Origin: Levilactobacillus cerevisiae
Lineage (GTDB): Bacteria; Bacillota; Bacilli; Lactobacillales; Lactobacillaceae
Length of the DNA: 64,000 bases
Direction: 5' to 3'
Assembly: GCF_003946245.1 (NCBI RefSeq)
Contig: NZ_RHNN01000005.1
Location: forward strand, 1-64,000
In this document: piece by piece, positions 33,925 through 52,091 of the stretch
How the letters are laid out: every line of letters begins with the position of its first letter
Numbering within the stretch: position 1 is the first letter of the stretch
Notes under the pieces: model-generated
What the model was told of the DNA's origin: nothing
The model's database searches: none
The model's input: only the letters and a program-made list of their open reading frames with translations
Program-made: the position numbers and the translations under genes

Positions 33925-34106
33925 GCCGCAGGGCTGGTGAAAATGAGCCAAGCCGTGGGAATTGCCTTAGTGACGGTCTTGGTCGCTTAGGCAATTGCTA
34001 TCTTTGAGACGCGTTTCTCAGCGGCTCAAAGTAAGTCTGGAGACCGCCTTTTGGCTCCAGACGGGCGCCCACAGCGGTCCGGTCTCATTTTCACCAGCCC
34101 GGAGGC
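33925..34106 (+). repeat. Three-hairpin repeat, class A, intact, + orientation
   Basis: Outer stem: GCCGCAGGGCTGGTGAAAAT plus GAG (33925-) pairs with CTCATTTTCACCAGCCCGGA plus GGC (-34106). Hairpins: H1 33960-33996 (AATTGCCTTAGTGAC / GTCGCTTAGGCAATT), H2 34002-34031 (CTTTGAGACGCG / GGCTCAAAG), H3 34035-34062 (GTCTGGAGACC / GGCTCCAGAC). A further small hairpin GGCTAACA/TGTTAGCC (33909-33927) abuts the left arm. Almost identical in plan to 26256-26438 read on the other strand. Confidence 0.8.
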
Positions 34107-44509: not shown

Positions 44510-44538
44510 TTGACAAACTGGGAAGAATGGGTTAACTT
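44510..44538 (+). promoter_or_regulatory. Promoter of the Cys-rich mini-ORF/oppA unit
   Basis: -35 TTGACA (44510-44515), 17-bp spacer, -10 TAACTT (44533-44538). The start of transcription would be near 44545, about 50 bp before the mini-ORF. Confidence 0.65.
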
Positions 44539-44594
44539 TAACCTTGTGCAATCCAATCGATAACTAAAAATAAGCAAAAAGGAGGAAAATCACG

Positions 44595-44699
44595 ATGATG
44601 AAGAACGCCATTCAAGTTAATACACTGCTTGCCGCATGTTGCGAATGTAACGTGTCTTTTTGCGCTACTTCCATTCGTGATTTTCCGGCTAAACCGTAG
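44595..44699 (+). CDS. Cys-rich 34-residue leader-like peptide
   Basis: Small gene with a near-perfect ribosome site (AAAAAGGAGG, 44576-44585) and ATG 44595. The peptide is about 34 residues and has CCEC at 15-18 and Cys23: four cysteines in nine residues. Its 5' part pairs with its 3' part: GGAAAATCACGA (44584-44595, including the SD region) is a perfect reverse complement of TCGTGATTTTCC (44675-44686). A small hairpin GACAAC/GTTGTC follows at 44709-44724. This layout suggests a translated leader whose ribosome occupancy at Cys codons controls the downstream peptide-binding lipoprotein gene. No known family. Confidence 0.5.
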   Translation: MMKNAIQVNTLLAACCECNVSFCATSIRDFPAKP

Positions 44700-44793
44700 C
44701 AGTACATAACGACAACTCAGGTTGTCACTGTCAAACGGTTAATTTTGCGGATTGCACACCACAAAATTTGAGGAAAAAAGGAGCAGTTATCTT

Positions 44794-46456: not shown

Positions 46457-46628
46457 GCCTTACCGGTCAGTCAAAATAGGTTGGAACGCTAGGGGGAGGA
46501 CGTCCCGAGCCAAAGAGCGGTCTCGGAACTTGCTTTGAGCCGCCAAGGGCGCGTCTCAAAGTCACCATTTTCTAAGTAGAACACTTAGAAAATCCCCTGG
46601 CTGAACCTATTTTGACTGACCTCACGGC
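46457..46628 (-). repeat. Three-hairpin repeat, variant after oppA
   Basis: Outer stem: GCCTTACCGGTCAGTCAAAA plus TAGG (46457-46480) pairs with CCTATTTTGACTGACCTCAC plus GGC (46606-46628). Inner: GTCCCGAGCC/GGTCTCGGAAC, CTTTGAGCCGCC/GGCGCGTCTCAAAG and ATTTTCTAAGT/ACTTAGAAAAT. The outer arm differs entirely from class A, yet the inner words CTTTGAG and CTCAAAG are kept. Confidence 0.75.
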
Positions 46629-46890
46629 TGAGATCGGTTCAACCTGTTACTTGATGACGATTGGTGAGGTGGTTACTTGTGAAAATAGGCCGGAACGCTG
46701 TGGGCGAACGCCCGGAGCCGAAGAGCGGTCTCCGTGCCTACTTTGAGCCGCCTAAGACGCGTCTCAAAGGTATCAATTCCCTAAGCAGCTAAAAGTCAGC
46801 TACTAAGGGAATTCCCACGGCTTAGCCTATTTTCACCACCCCTGCGGCTTACGTGGATTTAATACCTGCAGTGAGTTGTTTGATTGGCTT
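46614..46890. repeat. Tandem 277-bp repeat, unit 1, containing a three-hairpin element
   Basis: Starts GACTGACCTCACGGCTGAGA and ends TGTTTGATTGGCTT. It includes a three-hairpin element (core 46679-46836: GTGAAAATAGG / CCTATTTTCAC outer, CTTTGAGCCGCC / CTCAAAG, AATTCCCTAAGCAGCT / AGCTACTAAGGGAATT). It also takes in the right arm of the preceding element, so the repeat boundary does not coincide with element ends. Confidence 0.85.
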
Positions 46891-46926: not shown

Positions 46927-47203
46927 GACTGACCTCACGGCTGAGATCGGTTTAACCCGTTACTTGATGACGATTGGTGAGGTGGTTACTTGTGAAAATA
47001 GGCCGGAACGCTGTGGGCGAACGCCCGGAGCCATAGGGCGGTCTCCGTGCTTACTTTGAGCCGCCTAAGACGCGTCTCAAAGGTATCAATTCCCTAAGCA
47101 GCTAAAAGTCAGCTACTAAGGGAATTCCCACGGCTTAGCCTATTTTCACCACCCCTGCGGCTTACGTGGATTTAATACCTGCAGTCAGTTGTTTGATTGG
47201 CTT
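46927..47203. repeat. Tandem 277-bp repeat, unit 2
   Basis: Almost identical to 46614-46890, offset exactly 313 bp; I noticed only a handful of substitutions (for example GTTCAACCTG to GTTTAACCCG and GCCGAAGAG to GCCATAGGG). Contains the second copy of the element (core 46992-47149). A 36-bp spacer separates the units. The 5' ends lie in the arm of the upstream element, which points to duplication by unequal exchange between repeats. Confidence 0.85.
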
Positions 47204-48680: not shown

Positions 48681-48753
48681 TTGGTCGCATTTTTCAATCG
48701 TGGCGTTTATCTTATTGAGGATATATTTTAGAAAATAAAGGGGATTATTGGGT

Positions 48754-49569
48754 ATGAAGAAATCATTTAAGCATTTTAGTTGGCTCTTATTATTATTGAT
48801 TCCATTATTGATTGTTTCTGGCTGTGGCAAGTCTAGCAGCAGTAGTAGCAGTAAAACCGTGAAAATTGGGATCATGGGTTCCGACGAAAAAATTTGGCAA
48901 CCCATCCAAAGGAAGTTGAAAAAGGAAGGCATCACGCTGAAATTAGTGACCTTTACCGACTACAACCAGCCTAACGCTGCGTTGACCAACCATGAAATTG
49001 ATTTGAACTCGTTCCAACACACTTACTTCATGGACCAATGGAACAAGGCGCACAAGACCAACATCGTTTCCATCGGGAAGACCGTCCGCGCACCACTACG
49101 GTTGTACTCCAAGAAGGTTAAGAGCGTGTCTGCCATCAAGAAGGGTGACCAAATCACCATTCCAAATGACTCCACCAACGAAGGCCGGGCCTTACACTTA
49201 CTGCAATCTGCAGGCCTAATCAAGGTAAACAACAAGGTTGCTTTGCCAACGCCTAAGAACATCACGCAAAACAAGTTGAACTTGAAGATTACGCCAGTCG
49301 ACGCCGCCCAAACGCCACGTTCACTGACTGATGCGACTGCTGCGGTGATCAACAACGAATTCGCTTCCGAAGCCAAGTTGCCAAACAGCGAAACCATTTA
49401 CAAGGAAAAGATCAACAAGGCTTCCATTCCTTACATCAACATCATCGCAACCAACAAGGCTGATAAGAACAACAAGACTTACAAGAAGGTCGTTGAAGCT
49501 TACCAGACGGCCGAAACGAAGAAGTTGTTGAAGAAGTACTACCACGGTCTCACCATCCCAGCTTGGTAG
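48754..49569 (+). CDS. metQ: Methionine-binding lipoprotein MetQ
   Basis: 271-residue NlpA-family binding protein of the MetNIQ methionine ABC importer. Lipobox LIVSGC with Cys24, then VKIGIMGSDEKIWQPIQRKL, HEIDLNSFQHTYFMDQW and ITIPNDSTNEGRALHLLQSA GLI. Start ATG 48754 follows AAAGGGGATT. Expression is controlled by the methionine T-box just upstream. Unusually, metN and metI are 760 bp further on, separated by two three-hairpin repeats. Confidence 0.93.
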   Translation: MKKSFKHFSWLLLLLIPLLIVSGCGKSSSSSSSKTVKIGIMGSDEKIWQPIQRKLKKEGITLKLVTFTDYNQPNAALTNHEIDLNSFQHTYFMDQWNKAHKTNIVSIGKTVRAPLRLYSKKVKSVSAIKKGDQITIPNDSTNEGRALHLLQSAGLIKVNNKVALPTPKNITQNKLNLKITPVDAAQTPRSLTDATAAVINNEFASEAKLPNSETIYKEKINKASIPYINIIATNKADKNNKTYKKVVEAYQTAETKKLLKKYYHGLTIPAW

Positions 49570-49588
49570 GATTAGCGCTACGAATGAC

Positions 49589-49767
49589 GCCTCCGGGATG
49601 GTGAAAATGGACCGGAACGCTGTGGGCGGCCACGCGGAGCCAAAATGCGGTCTCCACGTTTACTTTGAGCCTCGAAGATCGAGTCTCAAAGGTACCAATT
49701 CCCTAAGCAGCACAGAACGCTACTAAGGGAATTCCCACGGCTGAGTCCATTTCACCATCCTTGCGGC
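49589..49767 (-). repeat. Three-hairpin repeat after metQ
   Basis: Outer stem GCCTCCGGGATGGTGAAAAT plus GGACC (49589-) pairs with GGTCCATTTCACCATCCTTG-type right arm ending GCGGC at 49767. Hairpins: 49632-49659 (CGCGGAGCC / GGTCTCCACG), 49663-49691 (CTTTGAGCCTCG / CGAGTCTCAAAG), 49698-49733 (AATTCCCTAAGC / GCTACTAAGGGAATT). Class A-like. The CTCG/CGAG pair in the second hairpin replaces CGC/GCG of other copies. Confidence 0.78.
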
Positions 49768-50090
49768 TCACGTGGTGTTAAACCAACCGCACCGTTTCTT
49801 GATTGGTTTGACAGTATTGCGGTAAACTAGTTGTTATCAGTGCCTCCGGGAGGGTGTGAAGCATTGACTGTGACGTACTGGACTTGAAATGGTTTGACCG
49901 GTTGGGTATCTGCCTAGTGGAAATGACTGTGGTGGCCACGAGAAGACTAAAGTTCATGCGACGTTTTCAAATGAATCAGTCTAATGATAGAAACGCTGCA
50001 ACAATGAATGAAAGTAACGATGTAACACTAATGATAGAAACACACGCACAAAGGAAGCGACCAGCCCAGTAGTTGGTTCAATCCATGTGA
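49768..50090. other. Gap between two repeats in the met locus
   Basis: Holds a second partial class A arm (GTGCCTCCGGGAGGGTGTGA at about 49842) without partner and two copies of CTAATGATAGAAAC (49980 and 50028) 48 bp apart. A 62-codon frame (49884-50072) has no ribosome site and no family likeness, so I do not call it. Confidence 0.45.
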
Positions 50091-50270
50091 GCCTGGAGGG
50101 CGGTCAGAAATGGGCTTAGCCGTAGGAATTTTCTTAGCGGTTTTCCGCTTAGAAAATTGGTAGCTTTGAGACTCGGTCTGTGAGGCTCAAAGCTAAGTCT
50201 GAAGACCGCTCTTTGGCTTCAGACGTCCGCCTACAGCGGCCCGGTCCCATTTCTGACCGCCCGGAAGGCG
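50091..50270 (+). repeat. Three-hairpin repeat before metN
   Basis: Outer stem: GCCTGGAGGGCGGTCAGAAA plus TGGG (50091-50114) pairs with CCCATTTCTGACCGCCCGGA plus AGGC (50246-50269). Hairpins: H1 50127-50158 (AATTTTCTTAGCGG / CCGCTTAGAAAATT), H2 50162-50194 (AGCTTTGAGAC / GCTCAAAGCT), H3 50197-50224 (GTCTGAAGACC / GGCTTCAGAC). A clean copy with an outer arm quite different from class A, showing that pairing rather than sequence is kept. Confidence 0.8.
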
Positions 50271-50342
50271 TTGCACCGCATCCATTTGAAACAGAATTAA
50301 TGAAGAAACTGCCGGCATTGGCGGATAAGGAGAATGAAGTCT

Positions 50343-51407
50343 GTGACTAAAGAAGCGATTATTGAATTAAAAGATATCGACGTGACCTTCCACAATAAGG
50401 GTCAAACCGTGACCGCCGTCAAAAATGTTTCCTTGACGGTCAACCGCGGGGACATCTACGGGGTCGTGGGGTATTCCGGCGCCGGGAAGAGTACGTTGGT
50501 GCGGGTCATCAACCGTCTTCAACGGCCAACTGCCGGCACTGTCGAAGTTAGTGGTCAGAACATTTTGGACCTGAAGGCAAAAGACTTGCGGGTCGCCCGG
50601 ACGAAAATTGGGATGATCTTCCAACACTTTAATTTGATGGCCTCCCGCACGATTGCCGATAACGTGGGCTACCCCTTAAAGGGCGGCGACTTATCTCGCG
50701 AAGAACGCCAACAGAAGGTTGCCCACCTGTTAGACCTGGTTGGGTTGACGGAAAAGGCTGCGGATTATCCCGCCCAACTTTCCGGTGGTCAGAAGCAGCG
50801 GGTTGCCATTGCGCGGGCCCTGGCGAATGATCCCGAAATCTTGATCAGTGATGAAGCCACGAGTGCCTTGGACCCCAAGACGACCTCATCCATTTTGGAA
50901 TTGTTGAAGCGGTTGAACCGCGAACTGGGCCTGACCGTGGTACTGATTACCCATGAAATGGAAGCCGTGAAGGAAATCTGTAACAAGGTTGCCGTCATGG
51001 ACGATGGCGAAATCATTGAACGCGGCGACTTGGTCACCATCTTCAGCCGTCCGGAACAGCCACTGACGCAGGACTTCATTAATACTGCCACGCAGATCAA
51101 TCAAGCACTGGAAAAGATTTACAAACAGGCGCGGACTTTGGGCCTGGACGACCACCAACAGTTGGTTCAGCTGCAGTATGTCGGTGCCAGCACCGATGCA
51201 CCACTGATTACCGACCTGTACAAGCGCTATGGTGTGGTTTCCAACATTCTTTATGGGAACGTGGAAATCTTGCAGGATACGCCATTGGGTAATCTGATTG
51301 TCGTCATGACCGGGGATCCCGATAAGCTACAGGCCGCTTGGCAATACTGTCAAGACGCGGGTATCACCATTACGCATTTAAAACCAACTGATCCGGAGGT
51401 GGCCTAA
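50343..51407 (+). CDS. metN: Methionine ABC transporter ATP-binding protein MetN
   Basis: About 354-residue ATPase of the methionine importer. Walker [10 protein letters not shown]-loop [12 protein letters not shown], signature [15 protein letters not shown], Walker [15 protein letters not shown]-loop [10 protein letters not shown], and the C-terminal NIL/ACT regulatory domain (about 265-354, [20 protein letters not shown]) that binds methionine for trans-inhibition. I place the start at GTG 50343, ten bases after AAGGAG; ATG 50334 lies only one base from it. metI starts directly after the stop. Confidence 0.92.
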
Positions 51408-52091
51408 ATGAATTTATTTGCAAAATATTTCCCCAACGCTGTTACCATGAAAAGCGACTTTCTGCAGGCCACTGGCGAAACGCTCTACATGACGTTCTTC
51501 ACCGCCGTGGTCGCTGGGATTATCGGGATGGCCATTGGGATTGGGTTGATTGTGACCCAGCCGGGTGGGATTCTCGAAAATCGGGTTGTTTATAACATTC
51601 TCGATAAACTGGTTAACCTGTGTCGGTCGATTCCGTTCGTTATCTTACTGGCCGTAATCGCACCACTGACGCGGCTGATTGTCGGAACGGCCATCGGGAC
51701 CACCGCGGCCATCGTGCCATTGGTGATTGGCTCTGCGCCATTTTACGCGCGGCAGATTCAAAATGCCTTGTCAGAGGTCGACCGCGGGGTGATTGAAGCC
51801 GCTGAATCCGTGGGTTCTGGTCCAATTGCCATCATCTTTCGGGTCTACCTGCGTGAAGGCTTGCCGGACATTATCCGTTCGTCCGTCCTCACGCTGATCA
51901 GTCTGATTGACCTGACTGCCATGGCCGGTGCCATCGGTGGTGGTGGCTTAGGGAACCTGGCCATCAACGTGGGTTACAGCCGCTTTGAAAGCGACGTTAC
52001 CTTCCTGGCAATGTTGATCATTCTGGTGATTGTGTTTGCTATTCAACTAATTGGTGACCTCTGGGCGCGTAAAGTGGACCACACGGCCTAG
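51408..52091 (+). CDS. metI: Methionine ABC transporter permease MetI
   Basis: 227-residue membrane subunit with about five TM helices. Seen: TLYMTFFTAVVAGIIGMAIG, NLCRSIPFVILLAVIAPLTR and the EAA loop IEAAESVGSGPIAIIFRVYL that docks on MetN, then TAMAGAIGGGGLGNLAI. Start ATG 51408 follows GGAGGTGGCC inside metN. Completes metQ-metNI. Confidence 0.94.
   Translation: MNLFAKYFPNAVTMKSDFLQATGETLYMTFFTAVVAGIIGMAIGIGLIVTQPGGILENRVVYNILDKLVNLCRSIPFVILLAVIAPLTRLIVGTAIGTTAAIVPLVIGSAPFYARQIQNALSEVDRGVIEAAESVGSGPIAIIFRVYLREGLPDIIRSSVLTLISLIDLTAMAGAIGGGGLGNLAINVGYSRFESDVTFLAMLIILVIVFAIQLIGDLWARKVDHTA

Follow-up and report, generated by a model that had tools for sequence, protein, structure and literature searches.

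The 64-kb stretch of Levilactobacillus DNA studied here (the window) contains a gene for an oligopeptide-binding protein, oppA, which is preceded by a short, cysteine-rich reading frame. This raises the question whether the mini-ORF controls oppA and, if so, at which level. It had originally been predicted to be a translation-coupled leader of oppA, laid out like an amino-acid attenuation leader on which the ribosome stalls upon cysteine starvation. With a probability of roughly 0.8 we consider the mini-ORF to encode the leader peptide of an attenuator of transcription, which would respond to cysteine by way of the translating ribosome, serves one group of Lactobacillaceae oppA genes, and is present in the window as a de-attenuated copy.

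Anatomy of the leader region

The features of the locus are collected in Table 1. The -35 element is perfect and unchanged throughout 24 aligned Levilactobacillus leaders. The putative -10 element, which takes the form TA[AT]CTT in many relatives, matches the consensus poorly and was not listed by our consensus promoter scan, such that the consensus promoter of the original prediction holds in its upstream half only. Behind this predicted promoter the mini-ORF lies in promoter-proximal position and has its own Shine-Dalgarno sequence (SD). Its translation, MMKNAIQVNTLLAACCECNVSFCATSIRDFPAKP, contains cysteine at codons 15, 16, 18 and 23, i.e. four in nine. Reading frame, strong SD and coordinates were thus all as originally described. 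The same applies to the inverted repeat between the SD/start region (segment 1) and the 3' end of the mini-ORF (segment 2), which is complementary at 12 of 12 positions, and to the presence of a hairpin between the mini-ORF and oppA. Over 32 sequences, 178 of the 188 cells of this small post-stop hairpin are paired, AU-to-CG double changes included. The leader as a whole folds more stably than its dinucleotide shuffles (z = -3.98, 0 of 200 shuffles as good).

Table 1. Positions of the features discussed in the text. Coordinates refer to the window unless another locus is named.
Feature	Positions	Strand	Basis and remarks
-35 element TTGACA	44510-44515	+	perfect; sequence
Putative -10 element TAACTT	44533-44538	+	17-nt spacing; weak, 3/6 consensus
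P0 5' arm TGTGCAATCC	44545-44554	+	at predicted transcript start; partner 44749-44758
Mini-ORF SD AGGAGG	44580-44585	+	9 nt 5' of ATG; sequence
Segment 1, SD/start arm	44584-44595	+	partner of segment 2; inverted repeat, covariation
Leader mini-ORF	44595-44699	+	34 codons plus TAG; sequence, conservation in genus
Hairpin around Cys codons 1-3 of the four, possible pause hairpin	44634-44655	+	7 pairs
Mini-ORF Cys codons	44637-44642, 44646-44648, 44661-44663	+	sequence
Segment 2, mini-ORF 3' end	44675-44686	+	partner of segment 1; in relatives of the terminator 5' arm (antiterminator)
Post-stop hairpin GACAAC-TCAG-GTTGTC	44711-44716 / 44721-44726	+	sequence, covariation
Apparent deletion junction, terminator removed	44740-44741 (approximate)	+	anchor spacing, terminator census
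P0 3' arm GGATTGCACA	44749-44758	+	just 5' of oppA SD
oppA SD AAGGAG	44778-44783	+	sequence
oppA, family 5 solute-binding lipoprotein, 546 aa	44794-46434	+	PF00496, 258 bits
Copies of repeat GAGCCGAAGAGCGGTCTC	34040-34057, 46507-46524, 46715-46732, 47028-47045, 49637-49654, 50202-50219		mismatch-tolerant count
T-box, Liquorilactobacillus L093	2063-2298 of L093		94.1 bits, over gathering score
T-box, Liquorilactobacillus L094	919-1156 of L094		78.0 bits, under gathering score, E <1e-15
T-box, Liquorilactobacillus L099	2130-2367 of L099		78.5 bits, under gathering score, E <1e-15

A further hairpin encloses the first three Cys codons. Six of its seven pairs are formed in 32 of 32 sequences and the outermost one in 28 of 32, and it may serve to pause the polymerase. 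Together with the CTTTTTGC that follows, it was also considered as the terminator of the attenuator. This was ruled out, since the hairpin is weak at -9.4 kcal/mol and the relatives have their strong terminator 3' of the mini-ORF stop.

The original prediction had missed a second long-range element, a perfect 10-bp inverted repeat (P0) that can form only in read-through RNA. In the alignment 96.3% of its cells are paired with 8 double-change cells, which was reached by 0 of 500 shuffles. P0 was significant in 25 of 32 Levilactobacillus leaders (in L055 on a different run) and in 1 of 39 leaders from outside the genus (L092), such that we take it to be genus-specific. Compared with Rfam, the window gave 0 matches at gathering score, to the T-box or any other family. 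A plasmid search with the locus returned only about 64-72% oppA similarity among the matches listed.

Conservation and distribution of the leader

Named relatives, the protein tree included, assign the window to Levilactobacillus. Leader DNA was matched in all 35 genomes of this genus (own genome counted), and each of them carries the CCxCN mini-ORF, in most rows as AACC[EQ]CN. Behind the Cys codons the reading frame varies between species, with the RNA (TTTTGCG..., CGTGATTTTCC) largely retained. As its frame shifts in certain species but its RNA is preserved, this part of the mini-ORF looks constrained as RNA. The mini-ORF had been expected to be neither absent nor frameshifted in orthologues; this is borne out for the Cys part in 35 of 35 genomes and fails in some species for the frame that follows.

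For the family as a whole, we kept the best 80 of 176 matches of a scan of named genomes, which gave 78 loci, or 79 with the window. The distribution is thus a sampled one, and the controls likewise covered the best loci. Within 420 nt upstream, 73 of these 79 oppA-family loci have an ORF that follows an SD and contains 3 or more Cys in 7 residues, compared with 0.5% of 3950 dinucleotide-shuffled oppA upstream regions. Similar scans for Cys clusters gave 5 matches in the whole window (both strands, coding DNA included) and 24 further ones across related loci totalling 506,411 bases. As such scans also match elsewhere, the mini-ORF by itself is weak evidence and conservation decides. In the other genera unrelated Cys-cluster peptides such as MCCSMC, FCCCQNC, MMMCCPCC and MCVCCM stand in the same place; their spacings differ and they have little in common except cysteine. 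This argues for the proposed amino-acid attenuation leader, in which the Cys codons are likely to be the regulatory ones. The six loci without a Cys leader are three of Liquorilactobacillus, which have a T-box, and three paralogues of 43-45% identity (L127, L128, L129). One locus, L121, was scored on an ORF 3' of its terminator; its likely leader, MLMQCCC with seven codons, precedes the terminator.

Among the controls, no Cys leader was found upstream of 12 paralogues from the genome of the window, nor upstream of the 27 best homologues from the order (37-42% identity). Two closer homologues, of 59-60% identity, were also inspected and both had one. Gene starts of paralogues and homologues were set by a fixed rule, which leaves those of L136, L140 and L147 doubtful. 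The protein tree supports genus-level groups and leaves the deepest forks open, with the Cys-leader rows L098, L100, L106 and L115 sharing an open fork with paralogues. For the full set of genera, orthology is therefore judged by sequence identity.

At 77 of the 78 named loci (best matches), the 260 nt immediately 5' of oppA contain a terminator of -15 kcal/mol or better. It stands 3' of the leader at 71 of the 72 named loci with a Cys leader, its sequence being genus-specific. The exception in both counts is L106 (Ligilactobacillus saerimneri), which has the Cys codons and no terminator behind them, and which possibly uses another mode of termination. Its mini-ORF, about 208 nt 5' of the matched start, ends in four Cys codons and the stop. 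Two further observations concern single groups. In Pediococcus (L109, L111, L112, L114) a second short Cys-containing frame lies between the terminator and oppA, about 77-95 nt 5' of the gene. In Lactobacillus corticis (L115) a second Cys-cluster mini-ORF, CCACCQLC, is found about 2.1 kb 5' of the matched gene, where it precedes what by eye is a tandem oppA copy.

Probable replacement by a T-box

At the oppA orthologue of three Liquorilactobacillus species T-boxes occupy the place where the Cys leader otherwise stands. By eye their specifier is AUG (Met). The position of the specifier was set by a T-box reading AUC (Ile) ahead of a BrnQ-like gene, itself named by eye. The OppA proteins of these species are nested among the Lentilactobacillus rows (100/99 support), for which reason the T-box is probably the derived state. 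Its presence in three orthologues means that tRNA-sensing control of oppA recurs. That it reads Met and not Cys we count against a cysteine attenuator.

Alternative pairings in the relatives

In the relatives segment 2, i.e. the 3' half of the mini-ORF, can pair either with segment 1 or with the 5' arm of the terminator (segment 3). The 1:2 pairing is formed in 93.3% of cells and has 22 double-change cells, and the 2:3 pairing has 18; neither number was reached in 500 shuffles. The count of further pair types did not exceed that of shuffles (246 of 500 for 1:2, 138 of 500 for 2:3), the second 2:3 helix is in part poorly paired, and the sequences compared are related. Pairing tests were carried out on 70 leaders, which are related rows and not independent. 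Those of 2:3 exclude the six loci without a Cys leader (L093, L094, L099, L127, L128, L129), L106 for its missing terminator and L121, for which the scan took the ORF behind the terminator. The 1:2 pairing was significant (p<=0.05) in 52 of the 70 leaders. Against a shuffled segment 2 the 2:3 pairing reached this level in 38 of 70 by folding and, more weakly, in 27 of 70 as a plain duplex. For Furfurilactobacillus, the L. delbrueckii group, L095, L100, L102, L103 and others the antiterminator was not above chance.

Placing ribosomes on the leaders in silico changed these pairings. With one ribosome stalled on the Cys codons and one initiating, 66 of 70 leaders were predicted to form an antiterminator of at least 5 pairs (median 16). 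The number was 41 of 70 for the stalled ribosome alone and 16 of 70 (median 2) when a ribosome occupied the stop. A stricter demand, at least 5 pairs under stall and initiation and no more than 2 with the stop occupied, left 33 of 70. This predicted ribosome dependence holds for the relatives, the pairing partner of segment 2 being gone from the window.

These pairings suggest the following switch for the intact leaders. When charged Cys-tRNA is ample, the ribosome would reach the stop of the mini-ORF and cover segment 2, such that the terminator forms. When it is short, the ribosome would stall on the Cys codons, segment 2 would pair with the terminator 5' arm and transcription would read through into oppA. 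Lack of translation would let segment 2 shut the mini-ORF's own SD, and the terminator would form again. In equilibrium folding under stall the terminator still forms in 66 of 70 leaders, and the switch would therefore have to be kinetic, decided during transcription.

Since the 3' end of the Levilactobacillus leader closes the leader's own SD, one stalled ribosome would not suffice, and a second ribosome would have to keep this SD open before segment 2 could act as antiterminator. We therefore put forward, tentatively, that in this genus the attenuator might need two ribosomes, a stalled and an initiating one. The modelled group comprises 31 loci (L052-L079, L102, L122, L124; two of them labelled Lactobacillus sp.), for which a single stalled ribosome gave a predicted 1.0-8.9 antiterminator pairs and the addition of an initiating ribosome 12.6-23.7. 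In Lentilactobacillus, where the Cys codons lie closer to the start, one ribosome gave 13.2-18.5 pairs in 12 of 13 leaders (not in L087). If correct, a two-ribosome device would sense cysteine shortage and translation-initiation capacity jointly.

Probable loss of the terminator in the window

In all 34 other Levilactobacillus genomes the mini-ORF is followed by a hairpin of -25.7 to -37.6 kcal/mol and a T-run; this genus count, 34 of 35, and the 71 of 72 named loci are overlapping sets. The best candidate in the window is a hairpin of -14.9 kcal/mol with a poor T-tail, which does not qualify as an intrinsic terminator between leader ORF and gene as those of the orthologous leaders do. The flanking anchors are separated by 17 nt in the window and by 74 nt in each of five close relatives, i.e. 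the window is 57 nt short. It is mainly by this loss, found in a single genome, that the window departs from its relatives. The apparent deletion, which rests on one assembly, is probably recent. With the terminator deleted and the rest of the leader kept, the window copy is probably no longer a working attenuator: oppA would be freed from attenuation and is most likely transcribed regardless of cysteine.

Alternative explanations

The missing terminator could also be an artefact of assembly, with the attenuator intact in the window strain. The genome is a single draft assembly of 82 contigs, and a near-perfect 40-nt hairpin may be lost from short-read data. We consider this unlikely, as the deletion site is internal to a contig of 144 kb and hairpins of this kind were assembled in the 34 other genomes, many of them drafts. 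A further explanation, which we regard as improbable, is that the window copy regulates at translation, the position of the ribosome on the mini-ORF altering access to the oppA SD. In single-sequence folding six bases at this SD were unpaired with a probability of 0.48-0.89 when the leader was free or carried one stalled ribosome, of 0.28-0.67 with a second, initiating ribosome, and of 0.05-0.75, thus less accessible, when a ribosome occupied the mini-ORF stop. Moreover, the leader has stayed intact despite the deletion. Such preservation is, however, equally expected if the deletion is recent, and the folding is one prediction on one sequence without comparative support. The mini-ORF stop and the oppA ATG are 94 nt apart, and in the predicted free fold the oppA SD is mostly open, unlike in a translation-coupled leader. 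Here the original prediction has to be revised: comparison with the relatives indicates that it is transcription which is attenuated, through an intrinsic terminator, and not that translation is coupled.

The remaining alternatives concern the role of the cysteines. The peptide itself might act as a nascent-chain sensor of metal or redox state instead of its Cys codons sensing charged tRNA; copper-sensing uORFs with Cys motifs are found in Proteobacteria. The residues next to the cysteines are indeed highly conserved within Levilactobacillus. Their codons, however, fall in the conserved RNA hairpin, which can explain this conservation. Between genera only the Cys codons recur, at differing spacings and without a common peptide motif, and the leader of S. 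malefermentans apparently has just seven codons (MLMQCCC). We thus give a peptide sensor little credence. That the leader is functionless in all relatives and is conserved merely through constraint on promoter and local sequence appears highly implausible, given that several helices show changes on both sides of their pairs, that frame shifts preserve the RNA and not the peptide, and that Cys clusters of seemingly independent origin occur in other genera. A cysteine-responsive attenuator of transcription thus remains our preferred reading.

The oppA gene and its possible substrate

For oppA we used the ATG start and not an upstream TTG. The product is 94% identical to OppA of L. wangkuiensis and matches NCBIfam OppA models under their cut-offs. 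A Cys leader in one lineage and a Met T-box in another suggest that this OppA may serve the supply of sulfur amino acids, presumably by import of sulfur-containing peptides. Food lactic acid bacteria often need cysteine, and for an OppA of such bacteria the Cys leader yields a concrete substrate hypothesis, namely peptides with sulfur amino acids.

About 2.3 kb 3' of oppA, at 48748-52091, the window contains genes for a metQ-like lipoprotein, an ABC ATPase and a permease. MetQ of this methionine-type transporter comes from the family search, the ATPase and permease were assigned by eye. The window also carries an interspersed repeat with the core GAGCCGAAGAGCGGTCTC, of which we counted 6 copies with up to 3 mismatches compared with 0.04 expected.

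Comparison with known systems

In the open-licence full-text literature we found no Cys leader for oppA or for genes of Lactobacillales; subscription work may exist. The probable cysteine attenuation leader is widespread in this family and apparently new for oppA and for this group. Ribosome-mediated attenuators of the trp/his type combine an SD-led leader ORF, clustered regulatory codons and alternative antiterminator and terminator structures, all of which are found in the relatives described here. In contrast to that type, segment 1 is here the leader's own SD, such that the leader can limit its own translation; Levilactobacillus has in addition a 10-bp helix from the transcript start to the region before oppA; the target is a peptide-binding protein; and the window copy is without terminator. 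Attenuation has reportedly also been studied in Mycobacterium tuberculosis.

Among Gram-positive bacteria, Rli60 of Listeria attenuates transcription of ilv-leu in a ribosome-mediated manner through a leader peptide, with four alternating regions, as far as the account consulted goes; unlike here, it uses branched-chain amino-acid codons and serves a biosynthesis operon (PMC8079631). Listeria oppA is placed by the same account under the LhrC sRNAs and not under a leader (PMC8079631). According to the relevant passages, the OppA-like binding protein CtaP of Listeria can serve cysteine uptake as well; it differs in having adjacent permeases, and these passages describe no leader (PMC10269559).

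Cysteine codons in leaders are described for two other groups. The uORFC-8-2 upstream of cysS in Rhodobacterales shares Cys codons, stems and a terminal U-run, and attenuation by Cys-tRNA is proposed in the part of the study that treats it; phylum and gene differ, and its tandem Cys codons are usually at positions 14-15 (PMC8632094). Actinobacterial cys/cbs leaders are likewise short ORFs with runs of Cys codons. They differ in that these run near the stop and that, in the section concerned, no conserved terminator is reported and Rho is proposed (PMC1262725). In Firmicutes T-boxes dominate and leader-peptide attenuation is less usual, according to the passages on hisS paralogues of bacilli (PMC2965389). 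Leader peptides do occur there, as the His leaders of these paralogues (PMC2965389) and Listeria Rli60 (PMC8079631) illustrate. The His leaders resemble our case as a predicted attenuator of Firmicutes with T-boxes on other family members, and differ by their His codons and synthetase-family genes (PMC2965389).

The T-box (RF00230) takes the leader's place at the same gene in Liquorilactobacillus and differs from it in sensing tRNA directly, without an ORF. The Cys leader stands upstream of this oppA group at loci of nine named Lactobacillaceae genera; a tenth genus has a T-box in exchange, and in one species the leader is broken, which provides a natural series for studying the exchange and loss of sensors. 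Compared with the known systems the attenuator is ordinary in kind; unusual are its self-closing SD, its exchange with a T-box and its broken state in the window genome.
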